34,899 bases of DNA from contig CANGXP010000018.1 of NCBI GenBank assembly GCA_947457935.1, positions 1 to 34,899 on the forward strand. The letters are read 5' to 3'. A model generated the notes under the pieces. The model saw only the letters and a program-made list of their open reading frames with translations, had not been told where the DNA came from and made no database searches. The position numbers and the translations under genes are program-made. Positions 4,917 to 34,409 of this stretch are shown here, piece by piece (position 1 is the stretch's first letter; each line of letters starts with the position of its first letter). Source of the DNA: Alphaproteobacteria bacterium (lineage in GTDB: Bacteria; Pseudomonadota; Alphaproteobacteria; JAJTHO01; CANGXP01).

Positions 4917-5399
4917 TTAAAAAATATCGCGCACTGTCATTAAATTGGTGTCGAGTCCACCAAACGAGTTTTTCGTGCGGAAGAAGCCTTCTGAATTCAT
5001 GCAAACGTCCATGACAGATATGCGAATGCGAAATCGCTCGGTTAATCCCGTTGATTGTGCTCCTGGGGGGGCAGCACGAAATGATTCATATTTACAACGA
5101 TAAAAAGCTTGCTCCAATGTCCGCCCGTTATAGCCGCGATATTCTTCTTCAGCAGGCGCACCTTGGCGAGGGTTGTCTTGATAGGCAGACAAAGCCATCT
5201 GTTGTTCCAGTGGATAGGCGGGAGGAGCTGCCTGCTGTTGCCTTGCTGCGCCGCCACCAAGAACAGGCATTATTTGAGTAGTGCCTCGATTATTATCAAA
5301 AGATTGGACGCTGAGATTTTGTGCGTATCCTTCTTGGAATGCAAAAAACATCCCTGAAACAGAAAGCATAAAAAAAAAGTATTTTTTAATTTTTGACAT
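4917..5399 (-). CDS. Exported hypothetical protein
   Basis: This is a 160-residue protein of no recognised family. From the ATG at 5399 it begins MSKIKKYFFFML and has a clear signal peptide ending near GYAQ, so it is probably periplasmic or outer-membrane attached. A Gly/Gln/Ala/Pro-rich low-complexity stretch (about residues 45-90) is followed by a more structured C-terminal part with two cysteines (FYRCKYE and DVCMNSEGF) that could form a disulfide. The frame is open further upstream to 5465, but that would put a charged extension before the signal peptide. It is transcribed away from the receptor-STAS-kinase operon. Confidence 0.65.
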   Translation of the reverse strand: MSKIKKYFFFMLSVSGMFFAFQEGYAQNLSVQSFDNNRGTTQIMPVLGGGAARQQQAAPPAYPLEQQMALSAYQDNPRQGAPAEEEYRGYNGRTLEQAFYRCKYESFRAAPPGAQSTGLTERFRIRISVMDVCMNSEGFFRTKNSFGGLDTNLMTVRDIF

Positions 5400-5485
5400 A
5401 CTTAAAAATATCAAATCCTGCTTTTTTTTGCAAGAAGATTTTTCTGTTTTTCTATTTATAATCAATGTCTTATATTTTATTTTAA

Positions 5486-5499
5486 GTGATTAAAATCAC
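5486..5499. promoter_or_regulatory. CRP/FNR-family-like palindrome in a divergent promoter region
   Basis: The bases GTGATTAAAATCAC form a perfect inverted repeat (GTGAT-N4-ATCAC), matching the CRP core GTGA-N6-TCAC and close to the FNR/FixK core. It lies in the 189-bp AT-rich gap between the exported-protein gene (minus) and the receptor-STAS-kinase operon (plus). A -10-like TATATT is at 5557-5562, which would place the box about 75 bases upstream of the operon's transcription start. A CRP/FNR-type regulator could therefore control either side. Confidence 0.45.
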
Positions 5500-5588
5500 A
5501 AAGTCGCTTGCACACCTATAAAGTGCATGTAGGTATTTTTTAACTATTTGATTGTATATATTAAGAGCGACACTTATAAGGTGTGATT

Positions 5589-6569
5589 ATGATGATACGC
5601 TATAATGAGACACAGTCTGGTTTGTCTGTCTTGGAACAAGCAAATATACCAGCCGTATTGGTGCAAGAAATATTCGTTGTACAATCACAGATGTTTGCTG
5701 GATTGCAGCAACACTTGCGCTTGTTTAAGGAAGAGATAGAAAGTTATTTGACAACAATAACCGTGCCGTTGGCGCAACAAGAAAAAACGGTGCAAGAGCA
5801 GCAGCAAATCTTACAAAAAGTTATAAGGAATGCAGAGGTTTTAGAGCTTGGCAATGCAGAAAATTTGAGTTTATCAGAATATGGAGACTTTGTAGAAAGT
5901 ATTCTGAATAATGCAATTCTTCTGACGATTGCTTATTCAAAGCAAGCTATTTCTATGGTTTATCGCCTAAGTGATGTTGTAGAGCGATTGGGTACTTTAG
6001 GGCAATTAGTTGTAAATATTAGCACGGTTAATCGAAAAACAAAAATGCTGGCACTGAATGCAACGCTTGAGGCCGCACATGCGGGGCAAGAAGGGCGCGC
6101 CTTTCATCATGTGGCGGCAGAGGTGCGCGATTTGTCGGAGAGTATCTCAAAATTATCACACAATATGCAGACTGAAATTCATCATGTCACACAGGGTGTG
6201 TTGGAAACCCACAAAATGTTGGTGCAATGCGCCGCAATGGACATGCAACCGATGGCGGAAGCAAGTGAAAAATTAGAGCATTTGATTACCGCCTTGCTAA
6301 CCCAACAAGAGCGTTTTGCTGCTGTAAAGCAAGAGATACAAGCGTTGCCAGCACCGCAAGGAGATCTTCCTACAGTTTTTCCTCTTGTGAAAAAGATACA
6401 AAAATTCCAAAGTATTGTGGAAAAAATACAGCAGCAGCAGGGGGGAGTTTTAGAAAAATTAAATAATTCAACATCTATTGAAGAGATGCAGGCGTTTTTT
6501 GCAACACAGGAGAATGAAATGCGCGCGTTTTTTTCAATGGATGCGTCAGAAATAACTACAGTACCATAA
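5589..6569 (+). CDS. Soluble methyl-accepting chemotaxis-like signalling protein
   Basis: This is a 326-residue protein without signal peptide or membrane segment. Residues 148-182 (NRKTKMLALNATLEAAHAGQ and the following GRAF..VAAEVRDLSES) match the highly conserved hairpin tip of methyl-accepting chemotaxis proteins, which normally contacts CheA and CheW. The flanks (about 60-145 and 185-310) are Gln/Glu-rich and helical, as expected of antiparallel coiled-coil arms. No sensor domain such as PAS, HAMP or a haem-binding globin is evident. An AAGGTG sequence at 5578-5583 favours ATG 5589 (or 5592) over the GTG at 5583. It is first in an operon with STAS and HATPase genes; no cheA, cheW or cheR is in the window. 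Confidence 0.72.
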   Translation: MMIRYNETQSGLSVLEQANIPAVLVQEIFVVQSQMFAGLQQHLRLFKEEIESYLTTITVPLAQQEKTVQEQQQILQKVIRNAEVLELGNAENLSLSEYGDFVESILNNAILLTIAYSKQAISMVYRLSDVVERLGTLGQLVVNISTVNRKTKMLALNATLEAAHAGQEGRAFHHVAAEVRDLSESISKLSHNMQTEIHHVTQGVLETHKMLVQCAAMDMQPMAEASEKLEHLITALLTQQERFAAVKQEIQALPAPQGDLPTVFPLVKKIQKFQSIVEKIQQQQGGVLEKLNNSTSIEEMQAFFATQENEMRAFFSMDASEITTVP

Positions 6570-6588
6570 CACAAGTGGAGTAAGGACG

Positions 6589-6897
6589 ATGCAATATTCA
6601 TCAGAGGCTGCCTCAAATGGCGGCATAAAATATACTCTCTCAGGGCAGTTATCGGCGCAGCATCACCCGATTTTTCGCGTTCTATTAAAAGAACTTGAGG
6701 CAGCAACTTTTTCGCACTGTACGCTGAATTTGGCGCAATTAGAGTTTATTGATTCAGGGGGACTGGGGATGCTGTTGCTTGCGAATGATATGTGCAAAAA
6801 ACGAGGTTCTATACTGGTTTTACAAGGGGCTACAGGGAATGTATTAAAAATACTCACCTTATCACAATTCCAAAAAATTATGACAATGATAGATTGA
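6589..6897 (+). CDS. STAS-domain protein (anti-sigma factor antagonist type)
   Basis: This 102-residue single-domain protein looks like SpoIIAA/RsbV. The core LNLAQLEFIDSGGLGMLL carries the conserved D-S-x-G-L-G motif with Asp55 and Ser56; in the family that serine is phosphorylated by the partner kinase, which breaks their complex. It starts 19 bases after the receptor-like gene stops, with GGAG and AAGGA sequences before the ATG. The HATPase gene starts two bases after its stop. By family knowledge it should bind the HATPase product in its unphosphorylated state; what the pair controls is not shown by the sequence. Confidence 0.83.
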   Translation: MQYSSEAASNGGIKYTLSGQLSAQHHPIFRVLLKELEAATFSHCTLNLAQLEFIDSGGLGMLLLANDMCKKRGSILVLQGATGNVLKILTLSQFQKIMTMID

Positions 6898-6899
6898 CA

Positions 6900-7385
6900 A
6901 TGTATTTATCACCTCAAGAAGCAGGTATGTGGGAGGCGAGGCTTCCCACAGAAAAAATAATACGAGAGCCGATTGCGGCATTATTAGTGGAAGAGATGCA
7001 GCAATTTATTCGCTTTTCGGAAGAAATGCGCTTCAAAATAGAATTTTGTTTGCAAGAGGGACTACAAAATGCAGTCGTGCATGGAAATTTAGAAGTGACC
7101 ATGCCCCTGTTATCCTTAGAAGATTTTGAGCACGCTCAAAATATTATAGAGCATCGTTTGACTATCCCCCTTTTTAACCAACGACAAGTACAGGTTGTCT
7201 GTCGATTGTTTTCTGAAAGTTTGGAATTGAATATTAAAGATGAAGGCAAGGGTTTTTCAATAGCCGAAAAGCAAAAAGAAACGCTGTTTGGGCGGGGATT
7301 TATGCTGATGACAGAATTATCCGATGGATTTTCGTATTGCCAAAAAACAACAACATTGCAAATTCTGTTCAAGAAGTTGTCATAA
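6900..7385 (+). CDS. HATPase_c anti-sigma-type serine kinase (RsbW/SpoIIAB-like)
   Basis: This 161-residue GHKL-fold protein has an N-box EFCLQEGLQNAVVHGN (residues 48-63, with Glu53, Asn57 and His61), a G1 box DEGKGF (114-119) and a G2-like GRGF (131-134). No histidine phosphoacceptor or sensor domain is present, so the anti-sigma/RsbW branch is more likely than a histidine kinase. About 25 residues between N-box and G1 (LSLEDFEHAQ to NQRQ) look like an insertion relative to compact RsbW proteins. The ATG at 6900 lies two bases after the STAS stop, suggesting translational coupling; the frame is open further upstream inside the STAS gene. The 3' end overlaps hemY, on the other strand, by 17 bases. 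Confidence 0.78.
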   Translation: MYLSPQEAGMWEARLPTEKIIREPIAALLVEEMQQFIRFSEEMRFKIEFCLQEGLQNAVVHGNLEVTMPLLSLEDFEHAQNIIEHRLTIPLFNQRQVQVVCRLFSESLELNIKDEGKGFSIAEKQKETLFGRGFMLMTELSDGFSYCQKTTTLQILFKKLS

Positions 7386-33820: not shown

Positions 33821-34114
33821 TCAGCTATAATCGCGCAGCTCTAGCCCATGCCATACACGCAAAATAACAGGGTTCTCCTCATCCAGCATATACCGCAAAA
33901 TATATCCATGCTTTCCAAAGGGCGTAAAATACTCTCTCCTGCCTGTATCATCAGGCATCCTAACCCCGATATGAGGCATCTCGCCTAACTGGGTAGCGGC
34001 ATGGTTAATCGTTTGGGCTGCCCTGCGTGCAGCATCGGGGTTTTTCTCTTTCAAAAACGAAAATACCCGCTCAACATCTGCAAGGGCAGGGCGTGTCCAT
34101 ATTACCGAGGGCAT
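33821..34114 (-). CDS. ParE/RelE-family toxin
   Basis: This 97-residue protein fits the ParE/RelE toxin superfamily: a starting strand VIWTRPALADVERVFSFL (two helices follow), then AARRAAQTINHAATQLGEMPHIG, VRMPDDTGRREYFTPFGKHGYILRYM-type strands (about residues 52-77) and a final VWHGLELRDY. The last motif is like the VLRVWHGRQ ending common in ParE toxins. The ATG lies inside the antitoxin gene with a 13-base overlap, the usual type II toxin-antitoxin order. Whether it targets gyrase (ParE) or ribosome-bound mRNA (RelE) cannot be decided by eye. Confidence 0.85.
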   Translation of the reverse strand: MPSVIWTRPALADVERVFSFLKEKNPDAARRAAQTINHAATQLGEMPHIGVRMPDDTGRREYFTPFGKHGYILRYMLDEENPVILRVWHGLELRDYS

Positions 34115-34365
34115 GGCAATTCGCCTTGCGTACCTATGCTATCAAGCCATTCCGTAACCGCTGTGTGAGAAACACCCCCGTCACGTTGGTATGCTTGCCA
34201 GCGTTGTGCATCTTCCTCACGCTCCCGCCAGTAGGCTTCTTGCTCTTGCAAGTATTTCTCAATAGCCGCTTTCATCAACCAATGCGGGGAACGTTGGGTA
34301 CGCACACCTAAGACTTGCAACCGTTCACGGGTCTGTGGGTCTAATTTAACGCCTGTTGTCTGCAT
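34102..34365 (-). CDS. Ribbon-helix-helix (CopG/ParD-like) antitoxin
   Basis: This 87-residue protein has an N-terminal ribbon-helix-helix DNA-binding domain: strand QTTGVKLDPQTRERLQVL, then a helix with RTQRSPHWLMKAAIEKYLQ. Its C-terminal tail (DGGVSHTAVTEWLDSIGTQ) matches the toxin-neutralising tail common in these antitoxins. The ATG at 34365 has AGAAGG upstream; an in-frame ATG at 34398 lies inside the operator and is less likely. It precedes and overlaps the toxin gene. By family rule it neutralises the toxin and represses its own promoter. Confidence 0.86.
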   Translation of the reverse strand: MQTTGVKLDPQTRERLQVLGVRTQRSPHWLMKAAIEKYLQEQEAYWREREEDAQRWQAYQRDGGVSHTAVTEWLDSIGTQGELPCPR

Positions 34366-34379
34366 AAACACCCTTCTTG

Positions 34380-34409
34380 TAGTTTCACCAAGTTGCACCT
34401 AGTAACACC
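34380..34409. promoter_or_regulatory. Operator of the toxin-antitoxin operon: three tandem decamers
   Basis: TAGTTTCACC, AAGTTGCACC and TAGTAACACC follow one another without gap, 15 bases upstream of the antitoxin ATG. The exact 10-bp period places all three on one face of the helix, as expected for cooperative binding by ribbon-helix-helix dimers. A -35-like TTGTAA (gene strand) lies upstream near 34434. Confidence 0.55.

Follow-up and report, generated by a model that had tools for sequence, protein, structure and literature searches.

A Partner-Switch Cassette Probably Detached from a Chemosensory Operon in an Alphaproteobacterial Genome

1. Introduction

Can a soluble chemoreceptor-like protein control a partner switch without the chemotaxis kinase CheA? 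The question is raised by three adjacent plus-strand genes, at 5589-7385 of the window, which encode an MCP-like coiled-coil protein, a STAS protein and a HATPase. The window is the whole stretch of DNA analysed here, that is, 34,899 nucleotides (contig CANGXP010000018.1) of an alphaproteobacterial genome of 1.83 Mb which is 99.6% complete. A sequence-only reading of this DNA had proposed a hybrid of chemotaxis and partner-switching logic, in which the coiled-coil protein may gate the switch directly and a CRP/FNR-like box upstream could tie the input to energy state or oxygen. The analysis described below leads to a different answer: the trio is probably a copy, inherited vertically but since relocated and reduced, of a partner-switch cassette which normally ends alphaproteobacterial chemosensory operons.

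2. The Three Genes and Their Products

All three ORFs are present and all their products score above the Pfam cut-offs (Table 1), which confirms the earlier observation of three adjacent genes. The MCP-like protein matches MCPsignal (PF00015) with 53.8 bits against a cut-off of 34.6, over residues 122-251, and the match covers the hairpin tip. The region around N157 gives PDB matches to chemoreceptor tips (E 6e-10), which support the MCP tip assigned earlier to the first gene. No transmembrane helix was evident in this protein when the sequence was inspected by eye, and Pfam gave no match in it to HAMP, PAS or any further sensor domain. The STAS protein matches STAS_2 (48.8 bits against 29.2), its closest solved structures being SpoIIAA and MlaB, and the HATPase is the genome's top scorer for HATPase_c_2 (44.2 bits against 27.4). 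The D-S-x-G-L-G phosphosite of the former and the N, G1 and G2 boxes of the latter, both reported before, are seen in the alignments; the boxes are intact and read E53..N57 (EGLQNAVVHGN), DEGKG and GRG, respectively. The intergenic gaps are 19 and 2 bp, a tight operon spacing, and ribosome-binding-like sequences precede the MCP-like and STAS genes. Of the window's other genes that were checked, none is a che, PP2C or sigma-factor gene. Divergent to the trio lies a gene for a 182-aa protein (4917-5465, minus strand) with no Pfam match, whose start looks signal-peptide-like by eye, and close to the contig end a ParE-type toxin and an RHH protein (33824-34398, minus strand) constitute a parDE-like toxin-antitoxin pair.

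Table 1. Coordinates of the features discussed (window positions unless a locus is named).
Feature	Position	Strand	Remarks
Perfect palindrome GTGATTAAAATCAC	5486-5499	.	about 90 bp upstream of the operon
Soluble McpA-like/MCP-like coiled-coil protein	5589-6569	+	326 aa from ATG; alternative start GTG at 5583
Receptor hairpin tip, residues 148-182	6030-6134	+	alignment, PDB matches
Degenerate site of the family FQDRxxQ (CheZ-like D-x3-Q) motif	6399-6425	+	reads QKFQSIVEK (alignments)
STAS anti-sigma-antagonist-like protein	6589-6897	+	102 aa; STAS_2 match
Predicted phosphoacceptor D55-S56, DSGGLG loop of STAS	6751-6756	+	alignment; role by analogy with SpoIIAA/RsbV
Predicted HATPase_c_2 (SpoIIAB/RsbW-type) serine kinase	6900-7385	+	161 aa; ATG 2 bases past the STAS stop
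696-aa soluble protein, two tandem MCP-like signalling repeats	L046:13098-15188	.	FQD-x3-Q in the first repeat only
Tip-less short proteins	L111:7752-8576, L121:2924-3676, L101:7614-8495, L133, L141:7743-8375	.	no Pfam CheZ match where scanned

Against nine relatives the MCP-like protein gives E values of 7e-30 to 7e-15 across about 200 aa, and it is, as judged by sequence, a diverged member of the McpA-like family. Compared with Tsr, the aligned tip carries the changes F373R, I377M, V384L, R388H, E391Q and V398H. In Tsr, whose numbering is used here, these positions are trimer and CheW contacts, and the window protein lacks the conserved residues there. The changes do not prove uncoupling from the array, because many alphaproteobacterial family members vary at the same positions. 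In addition, the alignments show the window protein to be without both the FQD-x3-Q motif and the C-terminal xELF tail of the family. Its AF2 model has a pLDDT of 75.9, and the best PDB matches of the model are chemoreceptor cytoplasmic domains, but with E above 0.001. The AF2 models in general (pLDDT 76-77, pTM 0.41-0.44) are of moderate confidence and say little.

3. Chemosensory and Partner-Switch Genes in the Same Genome

The earlier statement that no cheA or PP2C gene is nearby holds within the window but is misleading for the genome, whose full che cluster on contig 6 has MCP-like, STAS and HATPase genes within the main operon, so that the window trio has a paralogous cassette there. The order on contig 6 (L046) is MCP-CheY-CheA-CheW-MCP-CheR-CheD-CheB, followed by a 696-aa protein, a STAS protein, a HATPase-REC-SpoIIE fusion and a LOV protein. 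While the boxes of the window HATPase are intact, G1 of the contig-6 HATPase is degenerate (SHVGEP) and its Asp is lost in the alignment. The 696-aa protein with its double repeat recalls DosM of V. cholerae, a receptor with a double signalling domain. The LOV protein (L046:17449-18084, 211 aa) is a blue-light sensor of the YtvA family, and since it directly follows the partner switch of the che cluster, light could be an input. A second CheA cluster on contig 27 (L048) encodes an 878-aa CheA with a C-terminal REC, CheW, CheY, CheB and CheR, and a receptor gene is absent nearby.

Genome-wide there are eight MCPsignal matches and two CheA clusters. The genome also encodes two REC-SpoIIE proteins, so the notion of a partner switch without a phosphatase is not supported. 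One of the two is an orphan located on contig 10. As for sigma factors, RpoD, two RpoH and two ECF factors (one with ChrR) were found, but no SigB/SigF- or RpoS-type factor in the genome.

4. Relatives and the Origin of the Trio

In G002 and G003, two genomes from the order to which this bacterium belongs, and in numerous other Alphaproteobacteria the MCP-like, STAS and HATPase genes stand together, so the trio is conserved as a unit. In G002 and G003 the end of the che operon reads cheB, MCP-like, STAS, HATPase, REC/SpoIIE, and every relative found with all three genes has them in or beside a che operon with REC-SpoIIE. The sequence-only reading would have fallen if related genomes carried the genes apart; this was found in one relative only, G001 of the same order, where a detached STAS-HATPase-REC/SpoIIE set has no MCP-like gene beside it. 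The window copy, by contrast with its orthologues in G002 and G003, is not adjacent to cheB or SpoIIE in a che operon, and a detached trio with the MCP-like gene was seen in one genome only.

The wider survey used 80 named loci fetched with a C-terminal family profile, a set which is selected for the motif and serves for gene order, tail and spacing only. A typical family member is the 374-aa protein of Bradyrhizobium sp. BTAi1 (L067:7455-8579). The 43 loci examined are mostly alphaproteobacterial (Bradyrhizobium, Kiloniella, Sneathiella, Roseibium, Rhodopila, Azospirillum and others), and the MCP-like gene adjoins cheB in 35 of them. Where more than 4.5 kb was available downstream (37 loci), STAS comes next in 26, PP2C is present in 27 and a HATPase lies nearby in 24. 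In many Gammaproteobacteria the family gene precedes cheY and the tail differs (ITFF).

In the STAS tree the window protein groups with those of G001-G003 (94/91), apart from the contig-6 copy of its own genome. In the MCP-like tree, too, the window protein falls beside those of G002/G003 (94/83, long branches), with the contig-6 repeats elsewhere; the window branch is very long (4.18), so this placement could reflect long-branch attraction. The trees and the gene order of G002/G003 together are best read as meaning that the trio is the order's own inherited cassette, moved from the operon and without REC-SpoIIE. The orphan REC-SpoIIE of contig 10 was considered as the lost fourth gene of the trio, but this is unsupported: in the tree it groups with the contig-6 protein (80/90) and not with REC-SpoIIE of G001-G003.

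5. Proposed Working of the Cassette

With the cassette at its end, an alphaproteobacterial chemosensory operon normally runs cheA-cheW-mcp-cheR-cheD-cheB, MCP-like, STAS, HATPase / REC-SpoIIE. In such a system CheA, the array kinase, would pass phosphate to the REC domain of REC-SpoIIE, the phosphatase SpoIIE would dephosphorylate the STAS serine, and the HATPase, by analogy with SpoIIAA/SpoIIAB, would rephosphorylate STAS and swap between it and an output target. The McpA-like protein would sit with its tip in the array, and its D-x3-Q motif and ELF tail may act on phosphorylated REC. The window copy has lost the REC-SpoIIE gene along with the motif and the tail, and it retains the catalytic residues of the HATPase and the acceptor residues of STAS; to judge from these residues, it most likely provides the kinase side of the switch. 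Its phosphatase could be supplied in trans, either by the che-cluster HATPase-REC-SpoIIE, which has lost its G1 Asp, or by the orphan REC-SpoIIE of contig 10. The MCP-like protein itself may serve as a scaffold or adaptor and neither dephosphorylate REC nor receive a ligand.

If so, the trio illustrates that the partner-switch cassette is a module able to leave the chemotaxis operon. Loss of the REC partner gene here accompanies loss of the REC-acting motif, in what is a single case.

6. A CheZ-Like Motif and ELF Tail in the McpA-Like Family

When 33 tip-bearing MCPs were retrieved by receptor similarity, with the motif unused in the retrieval, F/V-QD-x3-Q stood exactly 112-113 residues past the tip Asn in 11 of the 33 rows (10 different proteins), and these 10 proteins end in I/V-ELF. 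The motif is absent from the other 22, among which the tail occurs only in the family-like protein of G045. In the family alignment all members other than the window protein have the motif, except repeat 2 of the contig-6 protein and the outlier G045. An hhalign comparison places CheZ and the family in register with 88.6% probability, against 5.6% for ordinary MCPs; the former value is inflated, since the family profile was built from motif-selected loci, while the 10 motif-independent proteins are free of this bias. Of eight members scanned with Pfam CheZ (PF04344), one gave a match, which was sub-threshold (E 0.031). In the fold search with the models the top matches were chemoreceptors, and CheZ was absent among the 50 matches listed.

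An alternative identity of the motif, the MDxVTQQN motif of the methylation helix of longer receptors, is not favoured because the spacing disagrees: the Asp lies 115 residues past the tip Asn compared with 100 or 93 in ordinary MCPs, differences which are not whole heptads. General replacement of CheZ by the family was also considered and rejected, since this genome encodes a separate true CheZ, which reads NFQDVTGQRLTKV ... DDIDALFDSL. No CheZ match was found in G001-G003 and G084.

Two further observations concern the same gene slot and tail. Tip-less proteins of 210-293 aa with FQD-x3-Q and a (D/E)IxxF-type tail occupy the position beside cheB in several operons, usually before STAS (Table 1). 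Moreover, in most of the operons at L046, L050-L056 and L059 CheD ends in or near xELF/xIDLF like the McpA-like tails, which suggests a shared binding partner.

The McpA-like family is little studied, and it looks as though it carries a CheZ active site that the window copy has lost. As a tentative proposal, to which we give somewhat less than equal weight, McpA-like soluble receptors may be receptor-tipped, array-anchored phosphatases of the CheZ type, whose FQD-x3-Q helix, placed at a constant spacing from the tip, and CheY-binding-like ELF tail serve to dephosphorylate the REC of CheY or of REC-SpoIIE. If this is true, the array would be coupled to the partner switch, the long-unexplained conserved C-terminus would gain a role, and in the window trio we would see a natural variant having shed REC-phosphatase activity along with its REC partner. 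In the literature searched, chiefly open-access papers, nothing was found on a CheZ motif in chemoreceptors.

7. The Upstream Palindrome

The CRP/FNR-like box proposed upstream of the operon corresponds to a real, perfect palindrome, but its interpretation fails. A search for HTH_Crp_2 gave no match in this genome, which is 99.6% complete, but did so in 14 of 14 control genomes, and CRP/FNR input to the operon is rejected because no Crp-type regulator was found. GTGA-N6-TCAC sites number two in the window, where 0.3 are expected. The GTGAT-N4-ATCAC pattern has 29 sites, most of which share a single sequence close to contig ends and so belong to a repeat. This sequence, GTGATGTGAATCAC or its reverse complement, occurs at 117-130 of the window and, in many contigs, some 100-180 bp from an end; the repeat, present in multiple copies and perhaps a mobile element, broke the assembly.

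8. Other Explanations Weighed

That the trio is a self-contained, CheA-independent unit, with the coiled-coil protein gating the HATPase/STAS switch directly, is unlikely. It would agree with the three genes lying together away from any che gene among those checked in the window, and with the altered CheW/trimer positions and the lost REC-acting motif, by which coupling to CheA may be gone. The relatives with all three genes, however, keep them with cheA/W/R/D/B and REC-SpoIIE, which makes CheA input through REC the simpler route; the switch of G001 lacks an adjacent MCP-like gene, so this protein is unneeded for switching; and contact between tip and HATPase found no structural support. The claim that the tip's target is the HATPase and not CheA is thus unsupported. 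The broader hybrid of chemotaxis and partner switching does exist and its trio is conserved, but it is normally linked to CheA and has precedents in Shewanella Che1 and the F7 clusters.

Decay is a further reading, in which the contig-6 cassette was gained or kept and the detached trio, having lost its phosphatase, drifts towards loss; the very long MCP-like branch, the lost motifs, the missing REC-SpoIIE neighbour and the restriction to one genome would all fit. We hold it to be quite improbable, as the three ORFs are intact, STAS DSGGLG and the HATPase boxes are kept while it is the che-cluster HATPase that lost the G1 Asp, and the operon retains tight spacing with ribosome-binding-like sequences ahead of its first two genes. 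Very unlikely, finally, is an ordinary cytoplasmic chemoreceptor which still signals to CheA, where STAS would influence that kinase like CheS of Sinorhizobium and the HATPase would be a bystander, in spite of the MCPsignal score, the two CheA clusters and the finding that S. meliloti CheS, a STAS protein, binds CheA (reviewed in PMC12654446). The protein has no sensor domain detectable by Pfam, its trimer/CheW contact positions are changed, and in the relatives STAS is accompanied by the kinase and the phosphatase of a partner switch. Furthermore, CheS-type operons are not known to contain HATPase or SpoIIE genes. The relocated, reduced copy of an operon-end cassette is accordingly the reading preferred here.

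9. Comparison with Known Systems

The trio shares with SpoIIAA/SpoIIAB and RsbV/RsbW the D-S phosphosite of STAS and a HATPase_c_2 protein with N, G1 and G2 boxes; it differs in that no cognate SigF/SigB-type sigma factor was found and the phosphatase lies elsewhere, fused to REC. CheS of Sinorhizobium and Agrobacterium resembles the STAS of the cassette in being small, in consisting of STAS alone and in its place within a che operon of Alphaproteobacteria, but CheS has been described as a modulator that binds CheA, and neither HATPase nor SpoIIE is encoded next to it. As for CheZ (PF04344), the other family members have in common with it NFQD/QFQD-x3-Q-R and an acidic ...LF tail resembling its ...DDIDALF, most of them differing from it by their MCP tip, and the window copy has neither motif nor tail.

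In the F7 stage-1 clusters cheR-cheD-cheB are followed by mcpA-like, anti-sigma-factor antagonist and serine phosphatase genes, and McpA is noted there for a conserved C-terminus of unclear role, whose pentapeptide has Val as its second residue (Ortega et al. 2020, PMC7184735). The family described here agrees in gene order and in the Val of its xVELF tails, while the window copy differs by its location outside the operon and its lost C-terminal tail. The presumed homology to P. aeruginosa McpA is based on gene position and tail, and the passages of PMC7184735 consulted make no mention of a CheZ-like motif in McpA-like receptors. The Che1 operon of Shewanella oneidensis contains a STAS antagonist and a regulator with an anti-sigma domain (CrsA/CrsR) together with an McpA-type receptor, and CrsR/CrsA control RpoS (PMC9855816); here, in contrast, no RpoS was found, and the HATPase and phosphatase of the window's cassette are separate genes. 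A link between chemosensory systems and partner switches is therefore already known from Shewanella Che1 and the F7 clusters, and the trio is a variant rather than a new category. The window copy stands out as detached, strongly diverged and without a phosphatase gene, and the CheZ-like motif in its family was unexpected.
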